IMG/VR virus record: IMGVR_UViG_3300042939_000852
Coordinates: 1-31,833 of that record
Direction: 5' to 3' (one strand)
Origin: a virus
Length of the DNA stretch: 31,833 nt
In this document: piece by piece, positions 1 to 26,006 of the stretch
Position numbering within the stretch: the first letter of the stretch is position 1
Layout: each line of letters begins with the position of its first letter
Position numbers and translations under genes: made by a program
Notes under the pieces: generated by a model
Seen by the model: the letters and a program-made list of their open reading frames with translations, nothing else
The model's database searches: none
Told to the model about the DNA's origin: nothing

Positions 1-556
1 TCTCCTTAAAATCCTCTAAACTTTTTACAATAATATCATATGTTTTTGGAAGATAGGTTTCCTCAAACCAATCAACTAATTCAGTCACATTTTCAAATAA
101 TTCAGGACTATCAATTTCACCAAAATTACCAGAAGTGTCAAATTCTTTTTTATCATCAGGTGAATTAATCGGAGTTACTTCAATATCAAATATATCAATT
201 GGAGTACTATTTTGACCATCCCAATATGGTGTAGCATAAACATTCAATCTATAATAGTTTTCTTCATCCATAAAATTACAATCCCATAAAACAACCCCTT
301 CCAAACCTGAATAGTGTAAAGTACAATTTTTGTATTCTTTATTTTGATTAACCAAATCTCTGAGTAAATCACCAACAACAATTTCGTTTTCACTATGGAA
401 TGTATCTCCTTTAATTGGTAAACCACTAAGTTCAGCTAATTTCAATTTATTAAAACCTGTCATTTTGGCTGTATCGTTAAACCCATGTTTTTCGATACCC
501 ATTCTTAATTTTTGGATAAACTTATCCATTTGATTTTCTGTAATTATTATTTTCAT
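1..556 (-). CDS. Leader-bearing hypothetical protein, C-terminus cut by window
   Basis: The frame is open from an ATG at 556 to the window edge, about 185 codons, so the gene is partial. It begins MKIIITENQMDKF, the short form of the shared leader. The body is clearly paralogous to the product of 1326-1901: both have a stretch ending G-F-N-K-L-K-L-A-E-L-S or similar, L-P-I-K-G-D, an ATPYW block and an F-E-N-V-x-E-x-V-D-W-F-E block near the C-terminus. The start shares one base with the stop of the upstream gene, so it is translationally coupled and is the last visible gene of the nine-gene minus-strand operon. No enzymatic motif is visible and the function is unknown. Confidence 0.8.
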   Translation of the reverse strand, partial: MKIIITENQMDKFIQKLRMGIEKHGFNDTAKMTGFNKLKLAELSGLPIKGDTFHSENEIVVGDLLRDLVNQNKEYKNCTLHYSGLEGVVLWDCNFMDEENYYRLNVYATPYWDGQNSTPIDIFDIEVTPINSPDDKKEFDTSGNFGEIDSPELFENVTELVDWFEETYLPKTYDIIVKSLEDFKE

Positions 557-1329
557 TAGTCGTAATATAATGTTCCCCTAATATCAACCATTTCTTCGAT
601 TTCATTGGGGTCGTATTTATCCAATAATGGGGTTCTCAATATACTCATAGTTGAACCAACAAACTTTAAGTTACCCAAATCTTCAACCTGAGAATCAATT
701 AAGCTAAACCAATCACCAACATACTCCAAGTTACCCAGTGTTTCGATTTTACTTTTACTTAAATCAAGATACTTTTCAACCTTTCTCAACTCACCCAATG
801 ATTTAATATTTTCGGTAATATCTACATCATTACCTCCCCAAAGATAACCAATTTCTTTAAGATTACCCAAACTTGTAACCTTTGTGGTCTCCAATCCTTT
901 AATGGTTTTAACAGTTTCCAATTGACCCAAATCTTCCAATTCAACACAATCTTCAATAGACAATTCACCACCAACTTCTCTAAGATTACCAAGAGATTTT
1001 AAATGGTCAGACCCTTTCAAATACACATTACCACCAACATATTCCAAATCACCAAGGTCTTCAACAAATGAAAATCTTAAATATAAATCACCATCAATTT
1101 TCTTAATCTCACCCAATGATTTAATAAATGCCGTGCTCAAGTTCAAATCATCAATGATATGAATACCAGTGAAACCTTTAGCTTCCTTGGCCTTCTTATA
1201 TAGTTTCATAAAGTTAAGATATCTCTCTTCATTAGAATCACCAGGTAAAGATTTCAAACTAATCTTGGCCAATTTTCCTTTTGATTCTTTAATCAATCTA
1301 TGTTGTTCTTCAGTTATTATTATTTTCAT
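556..1329 (-). CDS. LRR-like repeat protein with virion-type leader
   Basis: 257 aa. The leader MKIIITEEQHRLIKES contains I-K-E, a match to the T4-type prohead-protease rule ([I/L]-x-E). After about residue 50 comes a run of roughly 20-23-residue leucine-rich units of the form S-L-G-N-L-x-x-V-G-G-x-L-x-L, with consecutive D-L-G-D-L, S-L-G-N-L, D-L-G-Q-L and T-L-G-N-L blocks. This suggests a solenoid. It differs from the LRR paralogues at 2621-4879, which use L-P-x-L instead of L-G-N-L. It overlaps its upstream neighbour by 4 bp (ATGA type). Known LRR solenoids bind proteins or ligands; the partner here is unknown. Confidence 0.85.
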   Translation of the reverse strand: MKIIITEEQHRLIKESKGKLAKISLKSLPGDSNEERYLNFMKLYKKAKEAKGFTGIHIIDDLNLSTAFIKSLGEIKKIDGDLYLRFSFVEDLGDLEYVGGNVYLKGSDHLKSLGNLREVGGELSIEDCVELEDLGQLETVKTIKGLETTKVTSLGNLKEIGYLWGGNDVDITENIKSLGELRKVEKYLDLSKSKIETLGNLEYVGDWFSLIDSQVEDLGNLKFVGSTMSILRTPLLDKYDPNEIEEMVDIRGTLYYD

Positions 1330-1901
1330 AATTGTTCTTTTTTAAATCTATCAAGTAAAGTTTTAATGTAATTATATGTTTTTGGTTTATATTCATTCTC
1401 AAACCAATCAACAAATTCACTCACATTTTCAAATGATTTAGGACAATCAAACTCTTCATCATATATGTTTATTACATATTCTTCTTTGTCCTCAGGTGAA
1501 TCAATTGGTGCTATATGAATATTTGTTATAGATACTTGTGTTTTCTCATAACCCGCCCAATATGGTGTTGCATCAACACCAACATAATAATAATTTTCCT
1601 CATCCTTAAATCTACATTCCCACAATAATACTCCATCAATAAAATATTCAAGATTACAAGTTTTATATTTGTCATCTTTCTTTACCAAATCAGACAACAA
1701 ATCACTTGCAACAATTTCATTATCATCAGTAAATCTTGAATCTCTGATATCACCTTTTATAGGAAGATTACTCATTTCAGCAAGCTTCAATTTATTGATA
1801 CCCATCATTTCACTCGCCTCAATAAAACCTTGGTTGTCAATTAGTTGTCTAATCTTAGTTGTGAACTTATCAAATTGTTCTTCAGTTATTATTACCTTCA
1901 T
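1326..1901 (-). CDS. Leader-bearing hypothetical protein
   Basis: 191 aa. It starts MKVIITEEQFDKF, the short leader. Residues 30-45 contain A-S-E-M-M-G-I-N-K-L-K-L. The middle has a W-E-C-R-F-K-D-E-E-N-Y-Y strand region and an ATPYW block, and the C-terminus carries F-E-N-V-S-E-F-V-D-W-F-E. It is a close paralogue of the partial gene at 1-556 and a more distant one of 13357-13800, which shares the N-terminal T-A-R-M-M-G-M region. It overlaps both neighbours by 4 bp. Function unknown; soluble, acidic, no signal peptide. Confidence 0.82.
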   Translation of the reverse strand: MKVIITEEQFDKFTTKIRQLIDNQGFIEASEMMGINKLKLAEMSNLPIKGDIRDSRFTDDNEIVASDLLSDLVKKDDKYKTCNLEYFIDGVLLWECRFKDEENYYYVGVDATPYWAGYEKTQVSITNIHIAPIDSPEDKEEYVINIYDEEFDCPKSFENVSEFVDWFENEYKPKTYNYIKTLLDRFKKEQL

Positions 1902-2242
1902 TTATCCATTCTTTTTCTAACCAATCTTTTAATGTATTCACCATACTTGTCCATTATGTTGGCGGCCATTGTATCGTGATATTCAAATAATTCCATATTA
2001 GTATTTGCACCCATTTCATCAGGTATAGTTTCCCATACGACATTACTAATAACCCTTGTAACTAAATAATGAAATGTCGCGGTCTTATCATAAAATCTGT
2101 CAATATTTTTAATTACCCTATCAATTGCCTCAGGAATATTAATATATTTAATTCTCCTCCTAAAATAAGGTTTCAATCCATCATAGACATCATCAATCTT
2201 ATTTAGTTCGTCATATTGAGATTCATTAATTATTATCCTCAT
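1898..2242 (-). CDS. Small leader-bearing protein, paralogue of next gene
   Basis: 114 aa from the ATG at 2242. An in-frame TTG six bases upstream is not needed, because the ATG gives the canonical leader MRIIINESQYDELNK. The leader is followed by I-D-D-V-Y-D-G-L and a basic Y-F-R-R-R-I-K-Y block, then N-V-V-W-E-T-I-P-D-E. The same blocks occur in the same order in 2226-2624, so the two arose by tandem duplication. It overlaps the upstream gene by 17 bp, more than the 4-bp overlaps elsewhere in the operon. Function unknown. Confidence 0.8.
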   Translation of the reverse strand: MRIIINESQYDELNKIDDVYDGLKPYFRRRIKYINIPEAIDRVIKNIDRFYDKTATFHYLVTRVISNVVWETIPDEMGANTNMELFEYHDTMAANIMDKYGEYIKRLVRKRMDK

Positions 2243-2624
2243 CTTCAAGCATTTTAAGTAATTTACCCATTATATAACCACGATATTTCTTTTTAACTCT
2301 ATCTGTCATTTCATTAACATAATCAAATAATCTTTCATCTTCACTTCCACCCCACTCATCAGGTATTGTACTCCAAACAACATTATGAATTATATCATCG
2401 ATATGTCCATCAATACCACGAGGACTTTTCTTAAGAACATTCATACGCCCGTGCAAAGCTTCCCTTTGAGAAGGAAAAACTTGCCTAAATCCAATCCTCA
2501 TATCAATATCGTCCTTTATATCAATATAATCAATCCTCCTACGATAATATGGGTCTAAACCATCATAGATATCATCAATCTTATTAAGTTCCTTATATTG
2601 AGATTCTGTAATTATTAACTTCAT
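2226..2624 (-). CDS. Small leader-bearing protein, paralogue of previous gene
   Basis: 132 aa from the ATG at 2624, which gives MKLIITESQYKELNK and the same 4-bp ATGA overlap with the upstream stop as the other operon members. An ATG two codons earlier is also possible. Shared with 1898-2242: I-D-D-I-Y-D-G-L, Y-Y-R-R-R-I-D-Y and N-V-V-W-S-T-I-P-D-E-W-G. It carries an extra basic stretch around residues 45-65 (Q-R-E-A-L-H-G-R) that is absent from the paralogue. Function unknown. Confidence 0.8.
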   Translation of the reverse strand: MKLIITESQYKELNKIDDIYDGLDPYYRRRIDYIDIKDDIDMRIGFRQVFPSQREALHGRMNVLKKSPRGIDGHIDDIIHNVVWSTIPDEWGGSEDERLFDYVNEMTDRVKKKYRGYIMGKLLKMLEDEDNN

Positions 2625-3193
2625 AACCATATGTTTCCTTCAACATTTATTTTACTTCTTAATTCTTTCTCAGTAGTTTTCTTAGAGAGGGATGAATCCA
2701 TAATATTCAATACATCACCAACATATTTCAATTTTGGCAAATCCTGAATAAAAGTTTCTCTTAATGATAATGACCCACCAACATATTCCAATTCAGGTAG
2801 TTCCTCAGTATCACTTCCTCTTCCTCTAAAATCACCCCCAACATATCTCAATTTTGGAAAATCAATATCCGAGTTCGCAATATTAACATCACCATCAACT
2901 TTAATTAATAAAGGAAATTCAAATCTTTTTCTGTTTGACATTTCAAAATCACCTGTAACCTCAACTAAGTATTCACAGAAATCTTTAAGATGTTCGTCAT
3001 CCTCATATGTTAAACTCAAATCACCAATTACCTTTATACCAACCCAATTCTTAGTGTCCTTGGTCTTGTCAAATAAACTATAAATCTTTGTAATACCACC
3101 ATCTTGATTCCACATATCTTCAGGTACAGGAAGTAATCTACCCTCACCCTCAATCAATAATCTATATTGTTCTTCTGTTATTATTATTTTCAT
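2621..3193 (-). CDS. LRR-like repeat protein with virion-type leader
   Basis: 190 aa. The leader MKIIITEEQYRLLIEGEG contains both I-T-E and L-I-E. It is followed by a region conserved among the four neighbouring paralogues (P-x-D/E-x-x, I-x-x-L-x-x-x-x-K, G-I-K-V-I-G-D-L), then about five units of the type L-P-x-L-x-Y-V-G-G-x-L-x-L-x-x-T-x-I. The C-terminus ends in the shared K-K-T-x-x-x-E-L-R-x-K-I-x-V-x-G-N-I-x-L cap. It is one of four adjacent L-P-x-L-type LRR genes in the operon, with 4-bp overlaps on both sides. Confidence 0.87.
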   Translation of the reverse strand: MKIIITEEQYRLLIEGEGRLLPVPEDMWNQDGGITKIYSLFDKTKDTKNWVGIKVIGDLSLTYEDDEHLKDFCEYLVEVTGDFEMSNRKRFEFPLLIKVDGDVNIANSDIDFPKLRYVGGDFRGRGSDTEELPELEYVGGSLSLRETFIQDLPKLKYVGDVLNIMDSSLSKKTTEKELRSKINVEGNIWL

Positions 3194-3840
3194 AAATTAA
3201 GATGTCCTCCTACTTGTATTTTTCTTAGTTTCTCTTCATTTTTTTTATCAGCTAAAGGTGTATGTCTCAATGTCAATACACCCTGAACAATTTCTAACTT
3301 AGGTAAATCCTTAATAATTGTGTTATAAAGATTCAAATGTAATCCAACAGATTTCAATTCTGGTAATGAATGAATACCTGTTCTTTGTAAATATAAACAA
3401 CCATCAACCTCTTTCAGTTTCGGTAATTCACTAATACCACTATCTTCCAAACTAACATCACCAGTTACATATTCCAAATTGGGGAATGAAATATTATCAA
3501 CCTCAGAACCTCTCAAATTACCATCAATAACTTTCAATTTACCGAAATTATTATCAGGATTTTCTTCAGCCAAAATTAAAGTTCCATCAATATAAACAAC
3601 CTCATTGGTGAAATTATCCAAGTCATCATTATCATCAGCGTCAATCTCATAATAATCCAATTTACCAATAACCTTAATTCCATCAAATCCTTTAACATCT
3701 TTTAATTTGTTATAAAGATTTAAGGTCTTAGTTACACCACCTATTGTTTGTAAAAAAGCATTAGGCACATTAAATAATTTACCATCACCCTCACTTTCAA
3801 TAATCAATCTTAATTGTTCTTCAGTTATTATTAGTTTCAT
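3190..3840 (-). CDS. LRR-like repeat protein with virion-type leader
   Basis: 216 aa. The leader MKLIITEEQLRLIIESEGDG contains I-I-E, a possible processing site. It has the longest L-P-x-L repeat array of the four similar genes, with units such as S-L-P-E-L-K-S-V-G-L-H-L-N-L, and the common C-terminal cap (P-L-A-D-K-K, then L-R-K-I-Q-V-G-G-H-L-N-L). The insert at residues 65-80 is very acidic. It overlaps the adjacent paralogues by 4 bp on both sides, so it is translationally coupled. Confidence 0.87.
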   Translation of the reverse strand: MKLIITEEQLRLIIESEGDGKLFNVPNAFLQTIGGVTKTLNLYNKLKDVKGFDGIKVIGKLDYYEIDADDNDDLDNFTNEVVYIDGTLILAEENPDNNFGKLKVIDGNLRGSEVDNISFPNLEYVTGDVSLEDSGISELPKLKEVDGCLYLQRTGIHSLPELKSVGLHLNLYNTIIKDLPKLEIVQGVLTLRHTPLADKKNEEKLRKIQVGGHLNL

Positions 3841-4430
3841 AATAATATATTTCCTCCTACTTGTATTTTATTTCTTAGTTCCTCTCTATTTGTTTTCTTA
3901 GCAAAGGGTGTCCCCATCAAGCTCATTGCCTCACCAACATATTTTAATTTTGGTAATTCACTTATCTGTGTTTGCCTCAAATTCAAACCACCTCCAACAT
4001 ATTCTAGTTCGGGTAATGATGTAAGATTACTAACAGATAACGATAAAAACCCCATAACCTTTTTTAATTTTGGTAATAACACTTCACCTGTCAAATGACC
4101 TCTAAAACTACCACCAACATATTCCAATTTATTAAAATCGAAATCAAAATCATATTCAGGTAATAAAATATTTCCCTTAACATAAACAATTTCAGGTAAT
4201 AAACTAAATAAGTGAAAAGTATCGTCAAAGTTCATTATTCTCAAGTTCAAGTCACCCAAAATCTTTATACCAACCCAACCTTTTTTAGATTTAGTTTTAT
4301 GATATAATGTGAATAGTTTATCAATACCTTCTTCATCCTTTATTAATTCAGTTGGTATAGTAAATAACTTACCACCATTTTCATTCTCAATGATTAATCT
4401 ATATTGTTCTTCAGTTATTATTAGTTTCAT
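3837..4430 (-). CDS. LRR-like repeat protein with virion-type leader
   Basis: 197 aa. The leader MKLIITEEQYRLIIENENGG (I-I-E) is followed by K-L-F-T-I-P and the conserved G-I-K-I-L-G-D-L-N-L start of the solenoid. The units Y-V-G-G-S-F-R-G, S-L-P-E-L-E-Y-V-G-G-G and E-L-P-K-L-K-Y-V-G follow, then the shared cap F-A-K-K-T-N-R-E-E-L-R. Residues 1-20 and the C-terminal 25 residues are more alike across the paralogues than the repeats are, as expected if the ends are constrained and the exposed face diversifies. Confidence 0.87.
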   Translation of the reverse strand: MKLIITEEQYRLIIENENGGKLFTIPTELIKDEEGIDKLFTLYHKTKSKKGWVGIKILGDLNLRIMNFDDTFHLFSLLPEIVYVKGNILLPEYDFDFDFNKLEYVGGSFRGHLTGEVLLPKLKKVMGFLSLSVSNLTSLPELEYVGGGLNLRQTQISELPKLKYVGEAMSLMGTPFAKKTNREELRNKIQVGGNILL

Positions 4431-4879
4431 AGATATATTTCTCTTCCAACATTTATTTGTTTCTCCAATTCTTCTTTACTAATCTTCTTAGAGAGGGGAG
4501 TAAAAAGTAAAGCCAAATAACCCCCAACCGATGATAACTTTGGTAATGATTTTATTTTGGTTTTTGTTATATTCAAAAAACCACCAACCTCAGTCAATCT
4601 TGGTAAAGATTCTATTTTTGTATTTGCCAAATAAAGATTACCACCAACCTTAACCAAATAATCCAAAGTGGTAACATCGGCCTCTCTTTCATATAAATCC
4701 AAATCCCCATCAATATAATATCCATCATACTTCCCACCCTTCTTTTTATTAATATGTAAAAACATATCATCCAAAGCTGATGGTTTCAAATTCTCAAATG
4801 ATGTTAAATCAATAAGATTCTTACCATCTTCATTCTCAATCAGTAATCTATATTGTTCTTCAGTTATTATTAGTTTCAT
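4427..4879 (-). CDS. LRR-like repeat protein, first gene of the leader operon
   Basis: 150 aa from the ATG at 4879. A TTG two codons upstream is possible, but the ATG gives the standard leader MKLIITEEQYRLLIENEDG with L-I-E. This is the shortest LRR paralogue, with three units (T-L-D-Y-L-V-K-V-G-G, S-L-P-R-L-T-E-V-G-G, S-L-P-K-L-S-S-V-G-G) and the cap P-L-S-K-K-I-S-K-E-E-L. It is promoter-proximal: the motif GGTATTTATG lies 20 bp upstream on its strand. Confidence 0.86.
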   Translation of the reverse strand: MKLIITEEQYRLLIENEDGKNLIDLTSFENLKPSALDDMFLHINKKKGGKYDGYYIDGDLDLYEREADVTTLDYLVKVGGNLYLANTKIESLPRLTEVGGFLNITKTKIKSLPKLSSVGGYLALLFTPLSKKISKEELEKQINVGREIYL

Positions 4880-8990: not shown

Positions 8991-9425
8991 ATGAAAAGAA
9001 TTATAAGATTAACAGAGGGTGAATTAATTAAATTGGTAAATAGAATAATTTCTGAGCAGAATGTTGATTTGTATATTGACCAAGCTCCTCCTGGTGTTCC
9101 CACCTTTCAAGGTAAGATTGATATGGAAAAGATTGGTAAGGAATTGGGGATGGTTTTTGTCAACAATCAATTATATTATAAGGGTAAGAATGGTGGGGAA
9201 TTAGAGTTGAAGGTTGGACCTAAGATTGTTGATGATGAGAGTACATATCGTTTGTTTGTTACTAGTCCCACATCTAATGTTGAACTGTCAAAGAAATTAA
9301 TTAATGGAGTGGGTACGACAATGAATATGGAGAATGGGAAGACATTGGTATGGCAGGGTTATTTTAAGATGCCTGATTTTGATAAATTGAAGATGGAGAT
9401 TAAATCGATAATGGGGTTATTATAA
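8991..9425 (+). CDS. Long-leader hypothetical virion cargo
   Basis: 144 aa. The first 23 residues are a textbook long leader: R-I-I-R-L-T-E-G-E-L, then L-V-N-R-I-I-S-E-Q, with possible cleavage after I-S-E. The mature part (about 120 aa) has a D-Q-A-P-P-G-V-P-T stretch and then mixed alpha/beta sequence with no catalytic motif. The gene is a single cassette: repeat copy B and a TATTTAT motif upstream, repeat copy C directly downstream. Function unknown. Confidence 0.82.
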   Translation: MKRIIRLTEGELIKLVNRIISEQNVDLYIDQAPPGVPTFQGKIDMEKIGKELGMVFVNNQLYYKGKNGGELELKVGPKIVDDESTYRLFVTSPTSNVELSKKLINGVGTTMNMENGKTLVWQGYFKMPDFDKLKMEIKSIMGLL

Positions 9426-9502: not shown

Positions 9503-10039
9503 ATGAAACATTTATTAAACGATTTATCTGGTGAAGAAAAAAATAGAATCTTGGAACAATATAATAATTCCTTGATTGTTGAAACACAAAAATTCAATAA
9601 ATTATTGAAATCAAGTTTGGGAAATGTAAAACCATTAATGGAAATGGATGGTGATGATGAATTTGAAATGACAAATGATGATGAATCAAGTGAATATCCT
9701 ACCTATGAACAATTTAAGGATGAAATTGATGATTTCTTTTCTAACTATGGTGATTATATAAATCCTGAAAGATTAAAGCAAGAGGTTGATATGTTATTGG
9801 GTTTTATGAATGATGACTTTGAATATATTGGTGAGGGAAATGAGGAAAGGGTGGATGATGATGTTTCATATGAAAAAAAGGGTTCTCCATTGGTAACCAT
9901 AACTGTGGATGGTGGTGATTTAATCAAGGCATATCTTGATAATGATTATAGATATGACTATGGTGTTAATTCTGTGGAATTGGGGGGTAGATTTTTCTTT
10001 GATGAGAATGTATATAATGACTTTATAAATAAAAACTAA
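9503..10039 (+). CDS. Acidic protein with EEK-type leader
   Basis: 178 aa. The N-terminus (MKHLLNDLSGEEKNRILEQY) is a variant leader resembling L-T-E-E-E-K-x-x-I and includes I-L-E before Q. It is followed by a second conserved-looking segment, F-N-K-L-L-K-S-S-L-G-N-V-K-P-L-M-E (L-M-E is another candidate processing site). The rest is highly acidic, with D-G-D-D-E-F-E and many D/E-Y pairs, and has no cysteine. It could be a scaffold-like or DNA-mimic cargo, but nothing proves it. It is co-transcribed with 10043-10660 (3-bp gap). Confidence 0.78.
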   Translation: MKHLLNDLSGEEKNRILEQYNNSLIVETQKFNKLLKSSLGNVKPLMEMDGDDEFEMTNDDESSEYPTYEQFKDEIDDFFSNYGDYINPERLKQEVDMLLGFMNDDFEYIGEGNEERVDDDVSYEKKGSPLVTITVDGGDLIKAYLDNDYRYDYGVNSVELGGRFFFDENVYNDFINKN

Positions 10040-10042: not shown

Positions 10043-10660
10043 ATGAAAAAAATAATTAGACTAACTGAAAGAGATTTATTAAGTTTGGTTAAACAAACAA
10101 TAAATGAAATGGAAGAAAACAAAAAAGAATTTCCAAAATCGTATAGAGAATTATATGATGATTTACCCCAAGAATTAAAAGAATTATTATTCAAACAATG
10201 GGATGCAAAACAGAATCCAAAATGGCATCCTGAGGGTAATTCATTAAAACATATTTTGGTTGTAATCAAGAGGGCGTATCATCATTATCCTGATGACCCC
10301 AATATGATAATGACCGCATTATTTCATGATTTGGGTAAAATGGATACCTATGGAATTAATCCTAAGACAGGAGAACCTACCGCATATGGACATGAAGATA
10401 AATCAGAAAAATATGTTGAACAATTTAGAGATTGGGTTGAATCTTATGAAGGAACTGATGTTGATGAAATAAAATATTTGGTTAAAAACCATATGAAGAT
10501 TAAGCCATCAACTTGGGATGTTATGAAGGATGCAAAAAAAGAACCAATATCTTCTCATCCAGCATTTGATAAGTTGAAAGGTTTTACTGATAAGTTGGAT
10601 GGTGGAGGTACAAATATATCTGAAGCCAAGATACGAGAAATAATTAGAAGGTTGGTTTAA
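10043..10660 (+). CDS. HD-domain phosphohydrolase with long leader
   Basis: 205 aa. The leader K-K-I-I-R-L-T-E-R-D-L-L-S-L-V-K-Q-T-I-N-E has I-N-E as a candidate cleavage site at residues 20-22. The body is an HD domain: L-K-H-I (first His), F-H-D-L-G-K (the HD doublet), Y-G-H-E-D-K-S (third His) and a later K-N-H-M-K. These are the metal ligands of HD-superfamily phosphohydrolases, which cleave nucleotides, cyclic nucleotides or RNA ends. The substrate cannot be read from sequence. If packaged and injected, it could degrade host nucleotide signals. A strong terminator follows. Confidence 0.83.
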   Translation: MKKIIRLTERDLLSLVKQTINEMEENKKEFPKSYRELYDDLPQELKELLFKQWDAKQNPKWHPEGNSLKHILVVIKRAYHHYPDDPNMIMTALFHDLGKMDTYGINPKTGEPTAYGHEDKSEKYVEQFRDWVESYEGTDVDEIKYLVKNHMKIKPSTWDVMKDAKKEPISSHPAFDKLKGFTDKLDGGGTNISEAKIREIIRRLV

Positions 10661-10730: not shown

Positions 10731-11801
10731 ATGAAAGTTAGAATTACGGAGGAGGAAAAGGTTTTAATCAAATTATTGTATGGTATTTTGAGTGAACAAG
10801 AATCAAAACCTGAAATTAAAAAATCATCAGAGAGACAAAAACAATTTTGTCCTTATATTAATAAGGACTCTAAACAAATTGTTGATATTGAAAATATTTA
10901 CGATTTTTACAAAAAACAACTTAATTTACCATCGATTACAGTTGATACAACTATTTGGAATTATATTAATAATTTAATAAATAAAAGAGCTGAAATGTAT
11001 TATAAAACAATAAAGAATGATAGAATTTCTTGTGAAATTGCTTTGAATTGTATTAGACCATTGATGAGAACTTATAATTTGATTGTAGTTGACACTTTAA
11101 ATCAATTGATATATCTGTTTGACCCGAATGGTAATTTTATTGCGAAAGATGTAATTATTTCAGGAAAAAACAAACAACCCACTAACCCTACGGATATAGC
11201 AAATGCTATGTTATCTTGGGATGAGTCAGCTATCAAAGCGGGTTTTAAATGGATTAATGGTAAGGGATATGTTGACCAAACAAGTCAGAATAGAAAATAC
11301 AATCATGATTATGTGTATGATTGGATAGATAGAAATAACAAGAGGTTTACCTCTCCTGGTGTTTATGATATGGGTACGATTACGAGTGACGCATCGTATG
11401 CGGGAAAGATAAATAATATAAAACATTTGGTTCAAAATAACAAACAATACACACAAGCAATTCATGGTTATTACCTAGAACAACCACGAACATTAGTATT
11501 ACAAAAGGCAAAAAAGTTTTTGGGAGATGTTAAAAACCCTGAGGCAAAAAAGGAATTTATAAATGCGGTATCCACTGGTGGTTTAAATTTAGATTTATCA
11601 TATGGTTGCATAAATTTAACAACAGAATTTTTGAATATTTTACAAAAATATTGGGATAAAGCTAAAGTTTTTGTATTATCAGAATCCAATGAGAACTATT
11701 TGGTTGATAATTCTAAAAATTATTTCGATAAAATGTTAAATAGTGAGGTATGCCCATCTCCTCAATCACTTGGGGCTCAAGGTACTAGTAATTTTGTGTA
11801 A
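10731..11801 (+). CDS. L,D-transpeptidase-like protein with EEK-type leader
   Basis: 356 aa. The leader is MKVRITEEEKVLIKLLYGIL followed by S-E-Q, with L-S-E as a candidate cleavage site. The C-terminal half carries the YkuD signature: H245-G246 and S290-Y-G-C293-I-N-L, where Cys293 would be the nucleophile. The strand L-I-V-V-D-T-L-N-Q-L-I-Y-L-F (about residues 120-133) fits the usual 'tool'-strand start of YkuD domains. The HG to SxGC spacing is longer than usual. Known YkuD enzymes make or edit 3-3 peptide crosslinks or link proteins to peptidoglycan. In a phage it might seal or remodel the wall around the injection site. That role is inferred. Confidence 0.75.
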   Translation: MKVRITEEEKVLIKLLYGILSEQESKPEIKKSSERQKQFCPYINKDSKQIVDIENIYDFYKKQLNLPSITVDTTIWNYINNLINKRAEMYYKTIKNDRISCEIALNCIRPLMRTYNLIVVDTLNQLIYLFDPNGNFIAKDVIISGKNKQPTNPTDIANAMLSWDESAIKAGFKWINGKGYVDQTSQNRKYNHDYVYDWIDRNNKRFTSPGVYDMGTITSDASYAGKINNIKHLVQNNKQYTQAIHGYYLEQPRTLVLQKAKKFLGDVKNPEAKKEFINAVSTGGLNLDLSYGCINLTTEFLNILQKYWDKAKVFVLSESNENYLVDNSKNYFDKMLNSEVCPSPQSLGAQGTSNFV

Positions 11802-13067: not shown

Positions 13068-13344
13068 AATTAACGAGAATCAATTTGATAGAGTATTACA
13101 AAAGTATTTGGATAAATTATTAAATAGATATTCAGGTAAGATATGTCGTTTTGAGGTTGATGGTTATGATGAGGATGATGTGTTTTGGATAATGGCTATA
13201 ATATCTCAAGATTGGAGGGATGAAAATAATACTGATGATTTTTGGATTGATGTTGTTAGATTAAAAAAAGAAATAAAAGAGGAATTGAAAACAATATTTT
13301 CAGGTATTAATTTTCACATCGGTTCTTATGTTGGAAATTGTTAA
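13057..13344 (+). CDS. Small leader-bearing protein
   Basis: 95 aa. Leader MKIRINENQFDRVLQKYLDK with the ITE core changed to I-N-E (still [I/L]-x-E). The body has D-G-Y-D-E-D-D-V-F-W-I-M and I-K-E-E-L-K-T-I-F-S-G-I-N-F-H. The last block resembles H-N-E-L-K-N-I-F-S-K-S-F-P in 13797-14246, which supports common descent. Translationally coupled to the gene upstream. Function unknown. Confidence 0.74.
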   Translation: MKIRINENQFDRVLQKYLDKLLNRYSGKICRFEVDGYDEDDVFWIMAIISQDWRDENNTDDFWIDVVRLKKEIKEELKTIFSGINFHIGSYVGNC

Positions 13345-14829: not shown

Positions 14830-15741
14830 ATGAAAAGGATTATAACTCTAACTGAATCTGATTTGACAAGATTAATAAAAAAAATAATAGACGAACAAAC
14901 AACATCTTATCAAGCAGGACAACAACAAGGTCAAAAGGCCGCTCAAGCAACAAAACAAGCTGTAGGTCAGGCGGTAACTGCGGTAAAACAAGGTGCTCAG
15001 GTAGCCGGTCAAGCTATATCTAGTGGAGCACAACAAGTAATGAAAGCTGGTAAACAAACTATTGTGACTTTGGGTAACATTACCTTTACAATTGTAATAT
15101 ATGGTGCTGCAGTTATTTGGTTGATTGGTAAAGGTGTTTATAGAATAGCTAAAGCCACATCCGATGCTTTATTAAAATTATTATCATCAACAGGTAAATT
15201 AGTTATTGGGGGGGCAACTGAATTAGGTAAGAAATCAGTAGATACTTTAAAAGCTGGTGGTATATTAATTGATAAGGGTGCTCAATATGTAGGACAACAA
15301 CTTTCTAACCTTAAAGATTCATCAGTAACCTTAGGTAAATGGATTATTGGTCAAGCAAAACAATTTGGTTCCAAGATTTATGCTGCAGTATTAAGTGGAG
15401 CATCTAAAATAGGTACAATTGCTAATTTGGTCGGAGATTATCTTAAACAACAATGGTCAACAGTTCAAGCACAGGTTGGTAAAACTTGGGAACAAGCTAA
15501 ATCTTTAGCTTCAGGTGCTTATCAGACAGCAAAAAAAACAGCCCAAAATGTTGGTTCACAAATTTCGAAAACCGCAAGTGATATTGGTAGTGGTATTTCT
15601 AAGGCTGCAGGTAATGTTACTGGATTCTTGGGTGGTTTAATGAGTGAAATGTTTGAAAGGTATTTCAGTTTCGAAGGTGAGACAACATTAGATATACTTT
15701 TTGAAGCAAGAAGATTCAACGGAAAATCAATACTTTTATAA
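14830..15741 (+). CDS. Ala/Gln-rich helical protein with long leader and membrane segment
   Basis: 303 aa. The leader is R-I-I-T-L-T-E-S-D-L-T-R-L-I-K-K-I-I-D-E, with I-D-E before Q as the candidate cleavage site. Residues about 25-75 are a low-complexity Ala/Gln/Lys/Gly helix. Residues about 78-106 contain a strongly hydrophobic segment (F-T-I-V-I-Y-G-A-A-V-I-W-L-I-G). Further amphipathic helices with S-G-A-S-K-I-G- and A-Q-V-G-K-T-W-like units run to about residue 265, and the end is non-repetitive. This composition resembles ejected pilot or internal virion proteins that insert in host membranes during DNA entry. No enzymatic motif. The pilot role is inferred. Confidence 0.72.
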   Translation: MKRIITLTESDLTRLIKKIIDEQTTSYQAGQQQGQKAAQATKQAVGQAVTAVKQGAQVAGQAISSGAQQVMKAGKQTIVTLGNITFTIVIYGAAVIWLIGKGVYRIAKATSDALLKLLSSTGKLVIGGATELGKKSVDTLKAGGILIDKGAQYVGQQLSNLKDSSVTLGKWIIGQAKQFGSKIYAAVLSGASKIGTIANLVGDYLKQQWSTVQAQVGKTWEQAKSLASGAYQTAKKTAQNVGSQISKTASDIGSGISKAAGNVTGFLGGLMSEMFERYFSFEGETTLDILFEARRFNGKSILL

Positions 15742-15826: not shown

Positions 15827-16513
15827 ATGAAAATTATAATTACTGAACAACAATACGATAATATTTTACAACAAGTAAATAAAACGATTGGAAATATAAC
15901 TGACCCATATAAAATGGTGGGGATTCAAAGACCTTCTCAGAAAAAAATAGAAACAACAAAAAAGGTAAAACCAAAAGGTATTGCCAATCCTGAACCACAG
16001 AAAATTAGTGGGAAACAATTGATGGATGGTTCTGTTATGAATATAACAAATGATTACAAAAAAATAGTTAGAGAATGGGAGGGTGACGCAGCAAATAGAA
16101 TTGGTGGGGTAAAACAACCTAAGTTGGTAGGATATCTTGACTCAAGGGGAATACCAACGATTGGATATGGTCATACCGATGGTGTTAGGGTTGGTATGAA
16201 AATAACCAAAAAACAAGCTGAAGATTTTTTGGTTCAAGATTCTGGCGATGCTATTGGTTGTATCAGACGAATAATGGATGAATGGAAAAAAAATGATTTA
16301 AAAACTTATAAATTAACTCAAGGACAATTTGATGCTATGGTTTCAATGACATTCAATGCTGGATGTACAAGTATGAGAAAATCTAGATTTATACAAGAAC
16401 TAAAAAAAGGTAATACAAAAAAAGCTGCTGAACTTGTGAAAACTTTTTATATTGGTACAACAGAGGGATTAGCAAATAGAAGAGAACAAGAATACAATTT
16501 ATTTATATCCTAA
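15827..16513 (+). CDS. GH24 (T4-type) lysozyme with short leader
   Basis: 228 aa. Short leader MKIIITEQQYDNILQQ, a linker of about 55 residues rich in Lys, Pro and Thr, then a GH24 lysozyme domain. It has W84-E85-G (catalytic Glu, likely E85), G-Y-L-D-S-R-G with T-I-G-Y-G-H-T (the Asp and Thr of the T4 lysozyme triad) and D-A-M-V-S-M-T-F-N-A-G. It cleaves the NAM-NAG bond of peptidoglycan. Having the leader rather than a signal peptide makes it more likely a virion-associated (entry) lysozyme than the lysis enzyme; a GH19 endolysin for that role lies at 26787-27590. A leader-like gene follows after 3 bp. Confidence 0.88.
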   Translation: MKIIITEQQYDNILQQVNKTIGNITDPYKMVGIQRPSQKKIETTKKVKPKGIANPEPQKISGKQLMDGSVMNITNDYKKIVREWEGDAANRIGGVKQPKLVGYLDSRGIPTIGYGHTDGVRVGMKITKKQAEDFLVQDSGDAIGCIRRIMDEWKKNDLKTYKLTQGQFDAMVSMTFNAGCTSMRKSRFIQELKKGNTKKAAELVKTFYIGTTEGLANRREQEYNLFIS

Positions 16514-16516: not shown

Positions 16517-16975
16517 ATGAAAAAGATAATTAAAAAAATATTATTGGAAGAATACAATAACTCAATTCATAACTGGGAACTTCATCATCAACTTAATAAA
16601 AATGAATTTAGAATTACAAATAAGTTAAAGTTTGTTAATGAAAACAAGGAAGAAAGATTAAAAAACTTGTTTGATTCTATGATGGAGAAGTATGAAAATC
16701 TAATTGAAGTTCAGAGGGAGTATGAAGATTTTAAGACTTATGATATATACCAAGCATATGTTTATTATGTTGACCCTGAAATAGATTGGGAAGACGATGA
16801 ATATGTGTTTAAAGTATTACCAGTAGACAATTCAGACGATTACAATTTAGAATATCATGCTTGGGAACTTAAGAATGTTTCAGGTGCTTTTGGTAAAGAA
16901 CTTTTCGAAAAAATGTTGAAAGCTTGGTTTGAAAAAACTTACCAACTCCAAATCAACGCAGTTTATCCAGTTTAA
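16517..16975 (+). CDS. Hypothetical protein with degenerate leader
   Basis: 152 aa. It begins MKKIIKKILLEEYNNSIHNW, a shortened leader-like helix with L-L-E before E. The rest is acidic and Trp/Tyr-rich (V-Y-Y-V-D-P-E-I-D-W-E-D-D-E-Y) with no motif. It is co-transcribed with the GH24 lysozyme (3-bp gap) and could be its partner or inhibitor, but this rests only on position. Confidence 0.68.
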   Translation: MKKIIKKILLEEYNNSIHNWELHHQLNKNEFRITNKLKFVNENKEERLKNLFDSMMEKYENLIEVQREYEDFKTYDIYQAYVYYVDPEIDWEDDEYVFKVLPVDNSDDYNLEYHAWELKNVSGAFGKELFEKMLKAWFEKTYQLQINAVYPV

Positions 16976-18365: not shown

Positions 18366-18605
18366 ATGTCATACAGAAAAACAAAACTCATACAAGAAAG
18401 AAATGTTTTAATTGAAAAAAATAGATTAATGGAACAAGGTGTTGTAACAACAACAACCACTAAAAAGTTGGATAAAAAAACATATGAGAACTTATCGTTA
18501 TGTTCGAGTGTTAAAAATCCACCTAATCCTACTGAAATTAAAACAGAATTCGGAGTTGTACTACAAGACCCTTCAGGTAAAGTACCTTATTGTCGAAAAG
18601 AATAA
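18366..18605 (+). CDS. Small protein with divergent leader
   Basis: 79 aa. The start, MSYRKTKLIQERNVLIEKNR then L-M-E-Q, looks like a rearranged leader with L-M-E before Q. It is followed by T-T-T-T-T-K-K and a Cys-containing C-terminal half (L-C-S-S-V-K, P-Y-C-R-K-E) that could form one disulphide. It ends 2 bp before the convergent gene at 18608. Function unknown; leader assignment less certain than for the others. Confidence 0.65.
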   Translation: MSYRKTKLIQERNVLIEKNRLMEQGVVTTTTTKKLDKKTYENLSLCSSVKNPPNPTEIKTEFGVVLQDPSGKVPYCRKE

Positions 18606-18607: not shown

Positions 18608-19444
18608 TTATACTATACCTGAGGCTTCTTTATCAATGAGAGCTTTTACCTTTTCGTTTGCTTTAGCCCATGCACCACCACCTAATCTTCTGTCTCTATC
18701 GTTTTTAGCGATTTTGACTAATTCCTTCTCTGATTTGCCTTCATCAACACCTTTATTAATACTTTTTGCAAAATCTTTGAAGAAACCAGGACCATTCCAC
18801 GTGGCGTATGAGAAGTGTAATAATAATGGATTACTATTATTTACAATATTTCTTGCTTTTTCAGATAAATAATTTTTTGAATTTTTATCAAACAAACTTT
18901 TCATAGTTTTTACTGCTAAATCAAGTAATTGATTTTTAATTTCACCACCCCTATAATTCCAAGTCCATTTTTTACAAAAATTATCCATACCCATCTTTTC
19001 TTTTTGGTCATCAATCAACTGAAAGAATTTTTTTCCATCTGAGGATATATCTTCAATCTTACCTGCTTCTCTATCCAATCCGAACATTGTTTCACCTGAC
19101 CTACTATACATTCCTGTTTTACGAGGATGTTTTGAACCTGGATAACCAGCACATTCAGGATTCCAATAACCGCCTTCAAAATTTTCAATAACCTTTTTTG
19201 TTATGTCATAAAAATCGCCTTTACCACTTGATTTATACGGAGTAGTTTTATCATCGATTTCAGTATCTGATTCGGTATCTTTATTATCGGCATCAGGTGA
19301 AATTTTACCACTTCTATAATCATCTAGTTTTTTCATTGCGGTTTTAAAAATAATATCTAAAGGATTTATTTCTTGTTCAATTATTTTATACAAACTTTTG
19401 ATTCTATTTTTCTCATTTTCTGAGATTATCATTCTTCTTGACAT
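18608..19444 (-). CDS. Muramidase-like protein with EEK-type leader
   Basis: 278 aa. Leader M-I-I-S-E-N-E-K-N-R-I-K-S-L-Y-K-I-I-E-Q (residues 5-24; I-I-E before Q). Residues 24-55 (I-N-P-L-D-I-I-F-K-T-A-M-K-K-L) match the same region of the adjacent 19457-20752 protein. A charged linker follows. The catalytic part starts N-F-E90-G-G-Y-W-N-P-E, then S-G-E-T-M-F-G-L-D-R-E-A-G and later S-Y-A-T-W-N-G-P-G-F-F. The E-G-G-Y plus G-x-T-x-x-G-L layout recalls GH108-type N-acetylmuramidases with Glu90 as catalytic acid. This family call is by eye and moderate. It lies 12 bp after its upstream neighbour in one operon. Confidence 0.7.
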   Translation of the reverse strand: MSRRMIISENEKNRIKSLYKIIEQEINPLDIIFKTAMKKLDDYRSGKISPDADNKDTESDTEIDDKTTPYKSSGKGDFYDITKKVIENFEGGYWNPECAGYPGSKHPRKTGMYSRSGETMFGLDREAGKIEDISSDGKKFFQLIDDQKEKMGMDNFCKKWTWNYRGGEIKNQLLDLAVKTMKSLFDKNSKNYLSEKARNIVNNSNPLLLHFSYATWNGPGFFKDFAKSINKGVDEGKSEKELVKIAKNDRDRRLGGGAWAKANEKVKALIDKEASGIV

Positions 19445-19456: not shown

Positions 19457-20752
19457 TTACACAAAGTTTTTAAAGTCACTAAAAAATTGACTTGGCATAT
19501 CGGCATGTTTAACATTTCTTCGTACCTCAGGTTGAGTCGACTCTAAGTTTTTTAATCTTTCACCATGTTTTCTAAATTGCCCCGACCAATTTTCTTGTCT
19601 TGATATCATTTTGATGTTTGAGGGTAATTCACCATTAAAATTAGAACCAACAAATTGAGTTGCAAAATCAGGTACAACTGGGTCAATTAAACCCACCTTA
19701 TAACCTTTAGTTGCTGCCTCCCAAGCATTTTTACCACCAGCTGAAAATCCACTTACTGAAGTTATTTTAGCCTTAGGGTCTTGTAATTTAATCTGATTCA
19801 AAACATTGTCCAATGAATTTTCAAAATTACTATAAACTACATTTTTGTCTGAAAGTATTTTTGAACCTTTATCAAACATAAACTGAGCACCATATGAACT
19901 ACTTGGTGAACCACCGAAAACAATTGCATAATTTGATGTATTATTATTTTTATCAACAATGATACCCCCCTTAGACATTTGTTTATCAAATCTTTTTTCT
20001 TCTTTTTTTGATGGCATTTTTGGAATCGTGCCAATACCACCTTTATCTGTCACAGGAAAATTGAATTCTATGTGAACAGCGTTATTATTCTTTTCTCTTA
20101 GAACCTTTCTTATCCCAGAGTTTGGGGTTTTCATTAATTTTTCTGCGGCACTTGCAAATTGTTCACTATATGGTGCAACATCGATAGCAAATCCAGGTAT
20201 ATGGTTACTTAAAACTTTACCTCTTTTTTTATCTCTATCTTCTAAAAAATCAGCATATTGTTTTTGTGTTAATTCACCTGACATATATTTATCCCAAACA
20301 TTTACCACATCTTGTCCATACCAAGATGCTATATTTGACCTACTATTTTGTTTATTAACTCTCGCTTGGTCTTCATACGTTCTTAAAGTACTTGTAACTT
20401 TCAAATTTGATGTATTTGCTTGAGCAAAAATACTTTTAAGTAACAATTCAGAGGGTGAATTTAATTTTATTGCTGATGGTCCGTAAGTAATTTTAAAAGA
20501 TTCAGCATTTGGATGTACAAAAAATTCTCCAGGTTCGAAACTTGATACTAATGAAGAATCATATTCACTACTATCGGATGTTGAATCAGATGTTGTCATA
20601 TCTTCAGGGTCAATTTCACCTCTTCTAAATTTTTCTAATTTATCTAATGCTGTACTAAAAATAATGTCTAAAGGAGATTTTCCTTGTTCATTAATTTTGT
20701 ATAGACCTTTTATATGTTTTTTTTCTTCTTCAGAAATGACAATTTTTTTCAC
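19457..20752 (-). CDS. M15-type peptidase fused to a serine hydrolase, EEK-type leader
   Basis: 431 aa from a GTG at 20752. Leader K-K-I-V-I-S-E-E-E-K-K-H-I-K-G-L-Y-K-I then N-E-Q (I-N-E), and S-P-L-D-I-I-F as in the neighbour. Residues about 95-235 are an M15 (VanY/DD-carboxypeptidase) domain with zinc motif S-N-H184-I-P-G-F-A-I-D191 and H227-I-E229. Residues about 270-431 look like an alpha/beta hydrolase: the nucleophile elbow G-F-S337-A-G-G, then G-L-I-D357-P and K-H416-A-D fit a Ser-Asp-His triad. The first domain should trim peptidoglycan stem peptides; the second may be an esterase or amidase acting on wall or membrane substituents. It is first in a two-gene operon. Confidence 0.78.
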   Translation of the reverse strand: MKKIVISEEEKKHIKGLYKINEQGKSPLDIIFSTALDKLEKFRRGEIDPEDMTTSDSTSDSSEYDSSLVSSFEPGEFFVHPNAESFKITYGPSAIKLNSPSELLLKSIFAQANTSNLKVTSTLRTYEDQARVNKQNSRSNIASWYGQDVVNVWDKYMSGELTQKQYADFLEDRDKKRGKVLSNHIPGFAIDVAPYSEQFASAAEKLMKTPNSGIRKVLREKNNNAVHIEFNFPVTDKGGIGTIPKMPSKKEEKRFDKQMSKGGIIVDKNNNTSNYAIVFGGSPSSSYGAQFMFDKGSKILSDKNVVYSNFENSLDNVLNQIKLQDPKAKITSVSGFSAGGKNAWEAATKGYKVGLIDPVVPDFATQFVGSNFNGELPSNIKMISRQENWSGQFRKHGERLKNLESTQPEVRRNVKHADMPSQFFSDFKNFV

Positions 20753-22001: not shown

Positions 22002-22017
22002 ATATTTATATAAATAT
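22002..22017. promoter_or_regulatory. 16-bp perfect palindrome with TATTTAT motif on both strands
   Basis: ATATTTATATAAATAT reads the same on both strands, so the motif faces both the 22016 gene (+) and the 21967 gene (-). The ATG at 22016 begins inside it. Confidence 0.5.
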
Positions 22018-22318
22018 GAAAAGAATAGTACTTACAGAAGAAGAAAAAGAGGATATACTTGCCAAATACACAGAAGCTGACGATAAAGTTTTAGTTTATT
22101 TGAGGAGAAATTTTCCAGTCAATGAAGTTCCAACAGAATTTCAGGAATACTTTGGTAAATATAGGATTTTAGTTGATGACAAGTCAGTTCCTGTAAGAGG
22201 TAACTTTAAAAAGTTGATTGATAAAATTGATAATTTACTTGTTGATGTATTTGCGGATGTGGACGACAAAAAAAGAAGACAAACAATAAAAAAATATGTA
22301 AAATATTTTGAGGATTAG
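22016..22318 (+). CDS. Small protein with EEK-type leader
   Basis: 100 aa from the ATG at 22016. MKRIVLTEEEKEDILAKYTE is the L-T-E-E-E-K form of the leader, without the final I-x-E-Q. The rest is helical and charged, ending K-K-Y-V-K-Y-F-E-D. It has no catalytic motif. The start overlaps a palindromic promoter-like motif, so the mRNA would be nearly leaderless if that motif is a -10 box. Confidence 0.72.
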   Translation: MKRIVLTEEEKEDILAKYTEADDKVLVYLRRNFPVNEVPTEFQEYFGKYRILVDDKSVPVRGNFKKLIDKIDNLLVDVFADVDDKKRRQTIKKYVKYFED

Positions 22319-23813: not shown

Positions 23814-24191
23814 TTATTTACCACCAGAACCTTTTACACAATTTACAAAAGCCCCAACTTTAGCTAAAGCAACAGCCATATCTTTATCCTCTTCTTTGTT
23901 GCCAAAATTAACAGAAGTTACACATGCAAATGCTGTCTTATTTGCTTTTAATGTTTCTGTACCAAATTGTACATTAGGGTTACTTTTTATGTAACTTTCA
24001 AGAGCACTACAATTTTGAATAAGCAAATCTCTATATGGTTTCTTTTGGCCTTCTTTGAAATTAGGACCTAAGTTCATCATACCCTCTAAATGAGATTGTA
24101 ATGGTTCCATACAACTTGTTGCTTGTTCACTGATTACTCTTTTTACTAATTTAACTAAATCACTTTCAGTTAATCTTACAGTTCTTCTCAT
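23814..24191 (-). CDS. Long-leader hypothetical virion cargo
   Basis: 125 aa. The leader R-T-V-R-L-T-E-S-D-L-V-K-L-V-K-R-V-I-S-E is near the consensus, with I-S-E before Q. The mature 100 aa contain four Cys (A-T-S-C, Q-N-C-S-A-L, F-A-C-V-T, F-V-N-C-V-K), which could form two disulphides, and end G-S-G-G-K. Helical by composition. It is a single-gene unit with its own upstream motif. Function unknown. Confidence 0.82.
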   Translation of the reverse strand: MRRTVRLTESDLVKLVKRVISEQATSCMEPLQSHLEGMMNLGPNFKEGQKKPYRDLLIQNCSALESYIKSNPNVQFGTETLKANKTAFACVTSVNFGNKEEDKDMAVALAKVGAFVNCVKGSGGK

Positions 24192-24230: not shown

Positions 24231-24240
24231 AATAAATATG
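24231..24240 (-). promoter_or_regulatory. TATTTAT motif
   Basis: CATATTTATT on the minus strand, 39 nt before the ATG at 24191. Confidence 0.4.
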
Positions 24241-24269
24241 TTTATCTTGTAAAAAAAAACGATGAGATT

Positions 24270-24992: not shown

Positions 24993-25023
24993 AAAAAAAC
25001 ACTACGTAAGTAGTGTTTTTATA
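24991..25023. terminator. Bidirectional intrinsic terminator
   Basis: CACTAC (25000-25005), GTAA, GTAGTG (25010-25015), extended by A/T-runs. Shared by 24270-24992 and 25026-26006. Confidence 0.85.
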
Positions 25024-25025
25024 TT

Positions 25026-26006
25026 TTAAGCAAGTTCTACACCTCCAGGATTTGGTGAATAAACCACAACAACAAGTTTACTTATTTTAGGATTTAGTTT
25101 GTTCATTCCCCCAATACCGCCTTTATCAATTTCGTTTTTAATTCTTGGACTCGCCTTAAACAATGATTCTAAAGAAGGTATAAAAATGTTATTCTGTTTT
25201 ATTCCATTTTTTACAAATTCCAAATATTGTTGTCCAATCATATCACGGAATGTTTCATATTTAGAATCCAATTGGTCATCACCTGTATCATCAACTTGTA
25301 ATGTTAGATACACTTGCATTTTATCACCAAAGTAAGCTTGACCATATTTTTCAACGTTAGAAAATTTACCTAAATCAAGTCCTTGAACACCCTTTTTTTC
25401 AAACTCAGTCTTGAAGTTTCCGAATGCTTTTCTGAAACTTTCTACAGCTCTCATAATATTATTTAATTCATCTCTAGTCATAGATGGTACTGAATTAACA
25501 AATGTCATAACGTTGTTTGGGTTCAGATTTCCTGACAAACCTAATCCTGAAGAAAGGTCACCAATCAATTTATTAAACTCATTACTAATTGTGTAAAAAG
25601 TAGGTCCTACATTTGGTTCGTCAACTGGTCTCCCTTGGTCTAAAGGTTGTCCATTTATTGTTAGTTTTCCTGCAAGACTATTTAGGTTCATAGTCAAAAC
25701 GGAGTTCAAATAAGACTTCAGACTTTCTGATTCATCTTTAATAAAAAAATGAACACCATTTTCAATACCTGCAACATTGATAGGTTGTTTGGTAATTTGA
25801 GGTGATGGTATGTTACCAAGGGTTCTATCGAAGGTTATTGTTGCACTTTGTACATCTGGTCTTATTGGAAATAGACCTTTGAAAGAATATGGGACACTAT
25901 TTTTAAGGTAATTTCCTGCTTTGTTTTCATCACTTACTTGTTCTGAGATTACTCTCTTAACAATTTTGTATAAATCATTTTCTGTTAATCTAATAATTGT
26001 TTTCAT
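25026..26006 (-). CDS. Large long-leader hypothetical virion protein
   Basis: 326 aa. The leader K-T-I-I-R-L-T-E-N-D-L-Y-K-I-V-K-R-V-I-S-E is close to consensus, with I-S-E before Q. The remaining 300 aa have a beta-rich first half (S-A-T-I-T-F-D-R-T-L-G-N-I-P-S), a helical middle (R-D-E-L-N-N-I-M-R-A-V-E-S-F-R) and a C-terminal strand, K-L-V-V-V-V-Y-S-P. No enzyme signature. It could be a structural head or injected protein. It is divergent from the phosphoesterase gene. Confidence 0.82.
   Translation of the reverse strand: MKTIIRLTENDLYKIVKRVISEQVSDENKAGNYLKNSVPYSFKGLFPIRPDVQSATITFDRTLGNIPSPQITKQPINVAGIENGVHFFIKDESESLKSYLNSVLTMNLNSLAGKLTINGQPLDQGRPVDEPNVGPTFYTISNEFNKLIGDLSSGLGLSGNLNPNNVMTFVNSVPSMTRDELNNIMRAVESFRKAFGNFKTEFEKKGVQGLDLGKFSNVEKYGQAYFGDKMQVYLTLQVDDTGDDQLDSKYETFRDMIGQQYLEFVKNGIKQNNIFIPSLESLFKASPRIKNEIDKGGIGGMNKLNPKISKLVVVVYSPNPGGVELA

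Follow-up and report, generated by a model that had tools for sequence, protein, structure and literature searches.

What do the related N-terminal leaders found on otherwise dissimilar proteins of IMG/VR virus record IMGVR_UViG_3300042939_000852 do for the virus that encodes them? The window, by which we mean the whole stretch of DNA analysed (31,833 bases), is the entire virus record, and reversed it corresponds to positions 109,943-141,775 of the 147,874-base IMGVR_UViG_3300042868_010462 (G001) at 99.65% identity. A sequence-only reading of this DNA had proposed that about 26 unrelated proteins carry a common leader that serves capsid targeting and cleavage as in phage T4. Our best reading is likewise a T4-like scheme of capsid targeting and cleavage, greatly expanded in that several types of leader serve dozens of cargoes, and on the sequence evidence we consider it very probable that a T4-like jumbo phage uses these leaders as capsid-targeting propeptides.

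We counted 26 leader-bearing genes in the window, comprising 14 with leaders of type A (consensus MKIIITExQ), five of type B (IIRLTESDLxxLVKRVISEQ), five of type C (ISEEEKxxIxxLYxIxEQ; one of the five, at 9503, is weak), one with a short helical leader of type D (16517) and one with an uncertain leader (18366). The proposed number of tagged genes held and lies beyond chance, whereas "unrelated" shrinks to 19 cargo clusters; the array at 2-4879 contains three paralogue groups of 5, 2 and 2 genes, and the products of 18608 and 19457 have about 25 residues in common after the leader. The motif [IL][TS]E occurred within residues 3-11 in 20 of the 50 window genes whose products have 60 residues or more, versus 1 of 147 internal-Met segments, and shuffled controls gave a mean of 0.84 and a maximum of 5. 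Profiles for types A, B and C, trained on window leaders only, found leaders in 20/148 called genes of contig G004, 35/401 of G015, 24/341 of G025 and 35/387 of G027; the 27/218 found in G001 are mostly the training set, and 3/212 were found in G024, the contig without the window region, and 1/228 in Flavobacterium phage immuto. In each of the six contigs examined except G024, 7-14% of the called genes have a leader, and of 6138 shuffled N-termini the profiles matched none with A, none with B and one with C. Common to the three types is a core, [IL]-[TS]-E-x-[DEQ], plus a hydrophobic residue six positions past that E (L/I in 40/45 A leaders, I/L/V in 43/45 B leaders and I in 17/17 C leaders). 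Within the A core, E7 is conserved in 45/45, T/S6 in 44/45 and Q9 in 42/45. An alignment of 131 of the 144 leader proteins, leaving out eight that span a stretch border and five under 90 residues, has only M1 and E7 as near-invariant columns.

The sequence-only reading looked to the rest of the genome for a prohead protease, and the same virus does encode one on the longer contig: an S77 (gp21-type) protease is present in G001 (E 7.5e-24) and in G004 (1.7e-22), and both also encode a gp23-type capsid protein. The protease retains the ELNHP and GISSRG of T4 gp21, with the conserved H and S; in the solved chain 5jbl, presumably a catalytically inactive mutant, both residues are A. A T4-like scaffold had been expected as well, and an acidic protein is indeed encoded between the protease and gp23 genes; it had no Pfam or PHROGs match, and is named scaffold by position and composition.

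The capsid protein reads LINE↓A (arrows mark proposed cut places) in 79 of 80 loci, the other locus being unreadable, with I at P3 in 79/79 readable loci, and E60-A61 (full-protein numbering) is invariant as far as immuto; the capsids are 74-100% alike, so this conservation alone says little. By eye, in the 45 of 74 scaffold sequences viewed, the scaffold reads KESLNE↓Q or similar; several relatives have insertions that shift the site, at which L-x-E-Q stays (LREQ, SLHEQ, LFEQ), and some, for example L154, have no L-x-E-Q there. The motif that ends the leaders is the conserved motif of the same virus's capsid and scaffold proteins. In T4 (NC_000866, cut places located by motif) the sites are IAE↓A in IPII, IPIII and gp22, ITE↓A in IPI, LRE↓S in gp24 and LTE↓A in gp23; PMC9026906 gives the T4 motif as L/I-x-E and propeptide lengths between 7 (Alt) and 65 (gp23) residues. 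Ranked against the B profile among non-leader proteins, the scaffold site came 4th of 191 in G001, 9th of 128 in G004 and 101st of 317 in G025; among the matches listed it was ninth in G015 and sixth in G027. These ranks are only suggestive of B leaders mimicking the scaffold's helix-plus-cut segment, ELVKESLNE↓Q.

To locate the ends of the leaders, 45 B leaders were chosen on residues 1-12 only. They are conserved through position +10, with E in 43/45 and I, L or V at P3 in 44/45; past the E, conservation drops at once from 3.7 bits to 0.9, 0.7, 0.7 and 0.2 and then to at most 0.4, and P1' is Q, E, N or D in 31/45. A distal [ILVM]xE is present in 14/17 C leaders (shuffle mean 6.4, maximum 14). 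In the window, [I/L]-x-E occurs beyond the core and within the first 25 residues in 5/5 B leaders, 4/5 C leaders, 5/14 A leaders, the D leader and the uncertain one. The earlier statement that most leaders end in this motif before the cargo is therefore correct overall (16/26) and for types B and C, but not for type A. The remaining ten are nine A leaders and one C leader; nine of the ten show no more than I-[TSN]-E or L-T-E at residues 5-8, and the other, at 12744, has I-T-D in that place and L-R-E at residue 30. Predicted cut sites are clear for the B, C and D leaders, and the A leaders are the weak point.

Families in which a single cargo follows different leaders fix the predicted cut position. 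Members of such families were collected by BLAST across the 80 capsid loci and the six contigs; each query began at the proposed cut, and [ILVM]xE was sought at positions -14 to +4 relative to where the cargo alignment starts, with 1000 shuffles. The site was found in 33/33 distinct N-termini of the FFSN family (42 members, 2 unusable; shuffle mean 20.0, maximum 28), 38/38 of the GSF family (53 members, 7 unusable; 12.5, maximum 23) and 14/16 of the APIDY family (22 members, 5 unusable; 8.1, maximum 14), where the two N-termini without it have TRE↓A and TKE↓A. The PENI family has the site in 5/5, which is uninformative, the shuffle maximum also being 5. The site fell exactly at the aligned cargo start in 10/33 (FFSN), 28/38 (GSF) and 12/16 (APIDY). 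Leaders ahead of the same cargo include stubs of about 8 residues (MKKNWLFE↓APIS), B-type leaders and 37-residue forms, and in a G015 paralogue pair, one with a B and the other with an A leader, the match begins with the first residues past the site (NQEEVDRILDKIS, NQKYVDSLLDKIS). Inside GSF proteins, [ILVM]xE stands ahead of the DLAVWF module in 26/26 cases and of a looser TS...G module in 48/58, against a background of 2%. One GSF protein (L025:9990-10925; G001 49987-50925, minus strand) is polyprotein-like, with three [IL]xE-led modules, and the open frame of the G015 GSF gene runs on into a full B leader and another cargo.

Codons under identical residues differ at a rate of 0.38-0.41 in A leaders (expected 0.43) and 0.36-0.40 in B leaders (expected 0.49), which indicates that conservation acts mainly at the peptide level in these two types. 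This bears on the proposal that the 5' ends are recombination handles for cargo gene shuffling and the peptide is functionless. Handles would fit the clustering of leader genes in G015 and a codon identity above full randomisation, greatest in type C, but not the varying codons under identical A and B residues, nor the same end motif kept by unlike leaders on one cargo, and we give the proposal very little credence.

A scan of viral contigs with a B alignment gave at least 391 confirmed loci, of which 80 were kept; a scan with a closer set of five leaders gave at least 516, on contigs reaching 322 kb. Nearly the same patterns gave 3 loci in 84,980 prokaryote genomes, in two metagenome-assembled genomes (MAGs). 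All 19 contigs of at least 90 kb from the first scan were checked for head genes, and 16 have both S77 and gp23 and 3 have neither; for the nine new contigs of at least 120 kb from the second scan the numbers are 5 and 4, and another two new ones, close to 95 kb in length, lie outside the count. Overall, 21/28 leader-found contigs have both genes, 7/28 neither and 0/28 only one; the 28 are not all independent, G005, G006 and G038 probably being the same virus (alike in size and layout). A rough baseline is a capsid relative in 2483 of 50,697 named records. The B profile matched 20 of 22 large records, the two exceptions being G028 and immuto, and a tblastn search of the 50,697 named phage records with the B consensus returned one spurious match (E 9). 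The two MAGs stand outside the 28: one has neither gene, and the other, UBA3650, has S77 and an N-terminal piece of gp23. Two contigs of UBA3650 (L276 and L277) have longer B leaders, such as LTESDLHRIVKESVKRVMMEG. A B-leader gene in a contig of a reindeer Bacteroidales MAG (L275:1032-1541) lies beside bacterial-looking genes (acetate kinase-like, by eye) and may be a chimera or remnant.

The leaders might instead address proteins elsewhere, to the tail, a membrane or the host envelope, as the wealth of peptidoglycan-related domains (lysozyme, peptidoglycan-binding, LysM) among the few recognisable cargoes would allow. No Sec-type hydrophobic core is visible by eye in the B column compositions, where charged residues recur along the leader; this, the co-occurrence with S77 and gp23 and an end motif identical to that of capsid and scaffold make such an address highly improbable. 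Genes with Sec signals do lack the leader by sight, as had been reported, but this is uninformative on export versus packaging because signal and leader both occupy the N-terminus.

TATTTAT lies within 50 bases upstream of 89/144 leader genes versus 356/1434 others, and, for genes with at least 30 free upstream bases, of 68/78 versus 254/622 (shuffle 7.0); in the window 13/26 leader genes have it. In immuto it occurs within 80 bases of 10/21 virion genes versus 2/30 early or metabolic genes (Fisher p 0.0016), the 51 genes having been labelled by hand from the annotation and four further hypothetical genes left out. The motif appears to be late-type, not T4-type, because it is the reverse complement of the T4 late motif.

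That orientation is one of several observations that tell against capsid-targeting propeptides of the T4 kind. TATTTAT also stands ahead of 41% of non-leader genes with free upstream bases. Codon differences under identical C residues are 0.17-0.22 (expected 0.39), far from randomised. A second, distal [ILVM]xE occurs in 24/45 A leaders with distinct cargo (shuffle mean 15.9, maximum 24) and is missing in 21/45. Chance alone puts the motif in about half of the FFSN and APIDY N-termini, and at least one of the 1000 shuffles reached the observed 14 in APIDY. In the window, [IL]xE by itself shows no enrichment when sought at any place in residues 10-30 (21/50; shuffle mean 17.0, maximum 25). In G001 outside the window the strict regular expression is not enriched either (3/149 vs 14/596 for internal Mets); the leaders gather in certain genome regions. 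The seven contigs with neither protease nor capsid gene, possibly fragments, count on the same side. So do the B-profile searches of T4, immuto and the T4-like records Mel-JY01 and LR756511, which gave no match at E <= 1, and of LR756508, likewise T4-like, which gave 12.4 bits (E 0.12).

The A leaders in particular would suit head- or core-docking tags that mostly stay uncleaved, with the IxE motifs belonging to the docking helix: the distal site is often missing, and the conservation of E7, T/S6 and Q9 exceeds the needs of a bare cut motif. Such tags would not account for conservation ending sharply at the E in B leaders, for an [ILVM]xE kept in one-cargo families while the leader otherwise changes from about 8 to 37 residues, or for the identical motif at internal module borders, and we consider them unlikely. 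The claim that the leaders do the job of the T4 propeptides is strengthened by the protease, the shared end motif and the one-cargo families, and is weakened for type A; because the distal site is absent in 21/45, cleavage of A leaders may fall after residue 7 or not occur.

On the capsid-targeting reading, a short helix starting with the core [IL]-[TS]-E-x-[DEQ]-x-x-x-[IL] would dock the cargo on the scaffold core while the head assembles. The S77 protease would then cut after the distal [I/L/V/M]-x-E at head maturation, A leaders being cut after residue 7 or retained, and the trimmed cargo would remain with the DNA and probably be ejected into the next host. We infer scaffold docking, cleavage, virion presence and ejection from sequence. 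More tentatively, the lineage may maintain a cargo store, with dozens of tagged proteins per genome that are freely swapped, loaded, trimmed and delivered, and with a B leader that may imitate the scaffold segment; swapping would be free because a [core helix]-[I-x-E] leader would bring whatever cargo follows it into the head. If the capsid-targeting reading is right, the rule "leader core + I-x-E" would tell which nameless proteins of the lineage sit inside the virion.

The closest known likeness is to T4 IPI, IPII, IPIII and Alt, which, according to PMC9026906, also have a short N-terminal propeptide on otherwise unrelated proteins; it ends in L/I-x-E and is cut by gp21, which cuts gp23 and gp22 too. 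The same source describes T4 residues for targeting and for cutting as separable (in IPIII, residues 4 and 7 serve mainly targeting, and 8 and 10 processing) and Alt as losing a 7-residue propeptide. T4 has four tagged proteins, whereas the three largest contigs here have 24 (G025), 35 (G015) and 35 (G027) A-, B- or C-tagged genes. Unlike in T4, the leaders come in several flavours that keep the [IL][TS]E core, and they have no detectable similarity to MKTYQEFIAE; no kinship with the T4 tag can be detected by sequence. P1' of B leaders is mostly Q, E, N or D and not A, and the cargoes include lysozyme, HD, L,D-transpeptidase-like and LRR-like proteins.

Other systems share parts of this arrangement. 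The jumbo phages phiKZ and SPN3US, according to PMC5694885, also have a gp21-related prohead protease and an N-terminus common to two head proteins (gp53/gp54), but they cut after A-x-E or S/A/G-x-E, and here the motif is I/L/V/M-x-E; SPN3US has several propeptides of more than 100 residues and eight cleaved head proteins, whereas here leaders are mostly of 7-23 residues and dozens of proteins are tagged. In P1 the N-terminal 30 residues of DarB send a reporter to the head, one signal protein having been tested, and P1, unlike T4, seems to be without a separate scaffold protein (PMC9024508). Two immuto genes (NC_055915, 25061 and 111675) have a common leader of their own, MKKQILSEQF(K/R)RMQ.LAGIITES, ending ITE↓S. 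We found no paper on these leaders in the open-licence PMC literature, a scope that can overlook earlier subscription-only articles on internal proteins of the T4 type; in the accessible part of a jumbo-phage review (PMC13282480) the term "targeting sequence" is absent.

Pfam matches were few among the 131 leader proteins, with 12 families, none in more than three members: lysozymes, peptidoglycan binding, LysM, GDSL, HD, M78, abhydrolase and receptor L (LRR-like), together with families of unknown function. Peptidoglycan enzymes within the head would suit entry or ejection. The predicted structures of two cargoes were of poor quality (mean pLDDT 34.8 and 55.9), a fold search with the second gave no match at E <= 0.001, and PDB sequence searches with three cargoes gave nothing convincing.

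The array at 2-4879 (minus strand) consists of nine A-leader genes, mostly with 4-base overlaps, including five LRR-like paralogues, and has a single TATTTAT ahead of its first gene, 4427..4879 (leader MKLIITEEQYRLLIE↓N; TATTTAT at -27). This gene and 3837..4430 (MKLIITEEQYRLIIE↓N), 3190..3840 (MKLIITEEQLRLIIE↓S) and 2621..3193 (MKIIITEEQYRLLIE↓G) encode cargoes paralogous to the LRR-like cargo of 556..1329 (MKIIITEEQHRLIKE↓S; Receptor L domain, 8.6e-5). The other four have nameless cargoes: 2226..2624 (MKLIITESQ), 1898..2242 (MRIIINESQ; paralogue of 2226), 1326..1901 (MKVIITEEQ) and 2..556 (MKIIITENQ; paralogue of 1326, reaching the window edge). A leaders on the plus strand precede nameless cargoes at 12744..13067 (MKVEITDKQ, in which D replaces E; TATTTAT at -12), 13057..13344 (MKIRINENQ), 13357..13800 (MRIIISESK) and 13797..14246 (MKIIITESQ), and a GH24 phage lysozyme at 15827..16513 (MKIIITEQQ; PF00959, 5.3e-26; TATTTAT at -21).

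All five B leaders have their proposed cut at residue 22. On the plus strand they are at 8991..9425 (ISE↓Q; nameless cargo; TATTTAT at -21), 10043..10660 (INE↓M; HD-domain cargo, PF01966, 9e-5) and 14830..15741 (IDE↓Q; a helical cargo that weakly matches tape-measure proteins, phrog_58, 1.1e-6; TATTTAT at -38), and on the minus strand at 23814..24191 (ISE↓Q; nameless cargo; TATTTAT at -47) and 25026..26006 (ISE↓Q; nameless 326-residue cargo; TATTTAT at -24). The weak C-like leader of 9503..10039 (plus; 11.0 bits) reads ILE↓Q at residue 18 before a nameless cargo, with TATTTAT at -19. The C leader of 10731..11801 (plus; LSE↓Q at residue 22; TATTTAT at -19) precedes a cargo that we take to be L,D-transpeptidase-like from the motif AIHG ... 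SYGCIN alone, with no Pfam or PHROGs match, and that of 18608..19444 (minus; IIE↓Q at residue 23) precedes a presumably muramidase-like cargo (motif EGGY ... SGETMFG), again without a Pfam or PHROGs family match. The gene at 19457..20752 (minus; GTG start; C leader, INE↓Q at residue 22; TATTTAT at -20) has a weak, below-cut-off DUF5715 cargo match, and 22016..22318 (plus; TATTTAT at -13) has a C leader without a distal cut site and a nameless cargo with a relative in G004. The D-type leader, MKKIIKKILLE↓E, belongs to 16517..16975 (plus; nameless cargo; TATTTAT at -17), and the uncertain leader, which has LME↓Q at its end (residue 23), to 18366..18605 (plus; small nameless cargo; TATTTAT at -20).

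The lineage is best read as a jumbo phage of T4-like kind. The capsid proteins of G001 and of the 194,498-base record G024 are 100% identical; G024 aligns with about 73 kb of G001 1-92,069 at 91-99.8% and stops short of the window region. The capsid search of the 50,697 named phage records found no isolate of the lineage; the closest match was uncultured LR756508 (46% identity over half of the protein), and the immuto capsid is 41% identical. The lineage resembles the moraphages, aquatic jumbo phages of up to 307 kb with 25 published genomes, in size, T4-type head genes (prohead core protease and major capsid protein) and two further genes. According to PMC12619734, some moraphages encode DnaK, most encode lysine-tRNA ligase and most have predicted Bacteroidota hosts; the terms "N-terminal" and "internal" are absent from its main text as accessible. 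G001 shows a DnaK-like gene start by eye, and the window has a class II (D/K/N) tRNA synthetase at 31115-31831 (minus; PF00152, 6e-11). The window also contains, at 27665-30914 (plus), a PAS/GAF/HATPase histidine kinase followed by receiver-like and coiled-coil/membrane-like proteins (the latter two by eye), which reads as a phage-borne two-component-like cassette, and, at 11854-12504 (plus), an M54-type metallopeptidase (PF07998, 7.5e-16) with a lipoprotein-like signal by eye.

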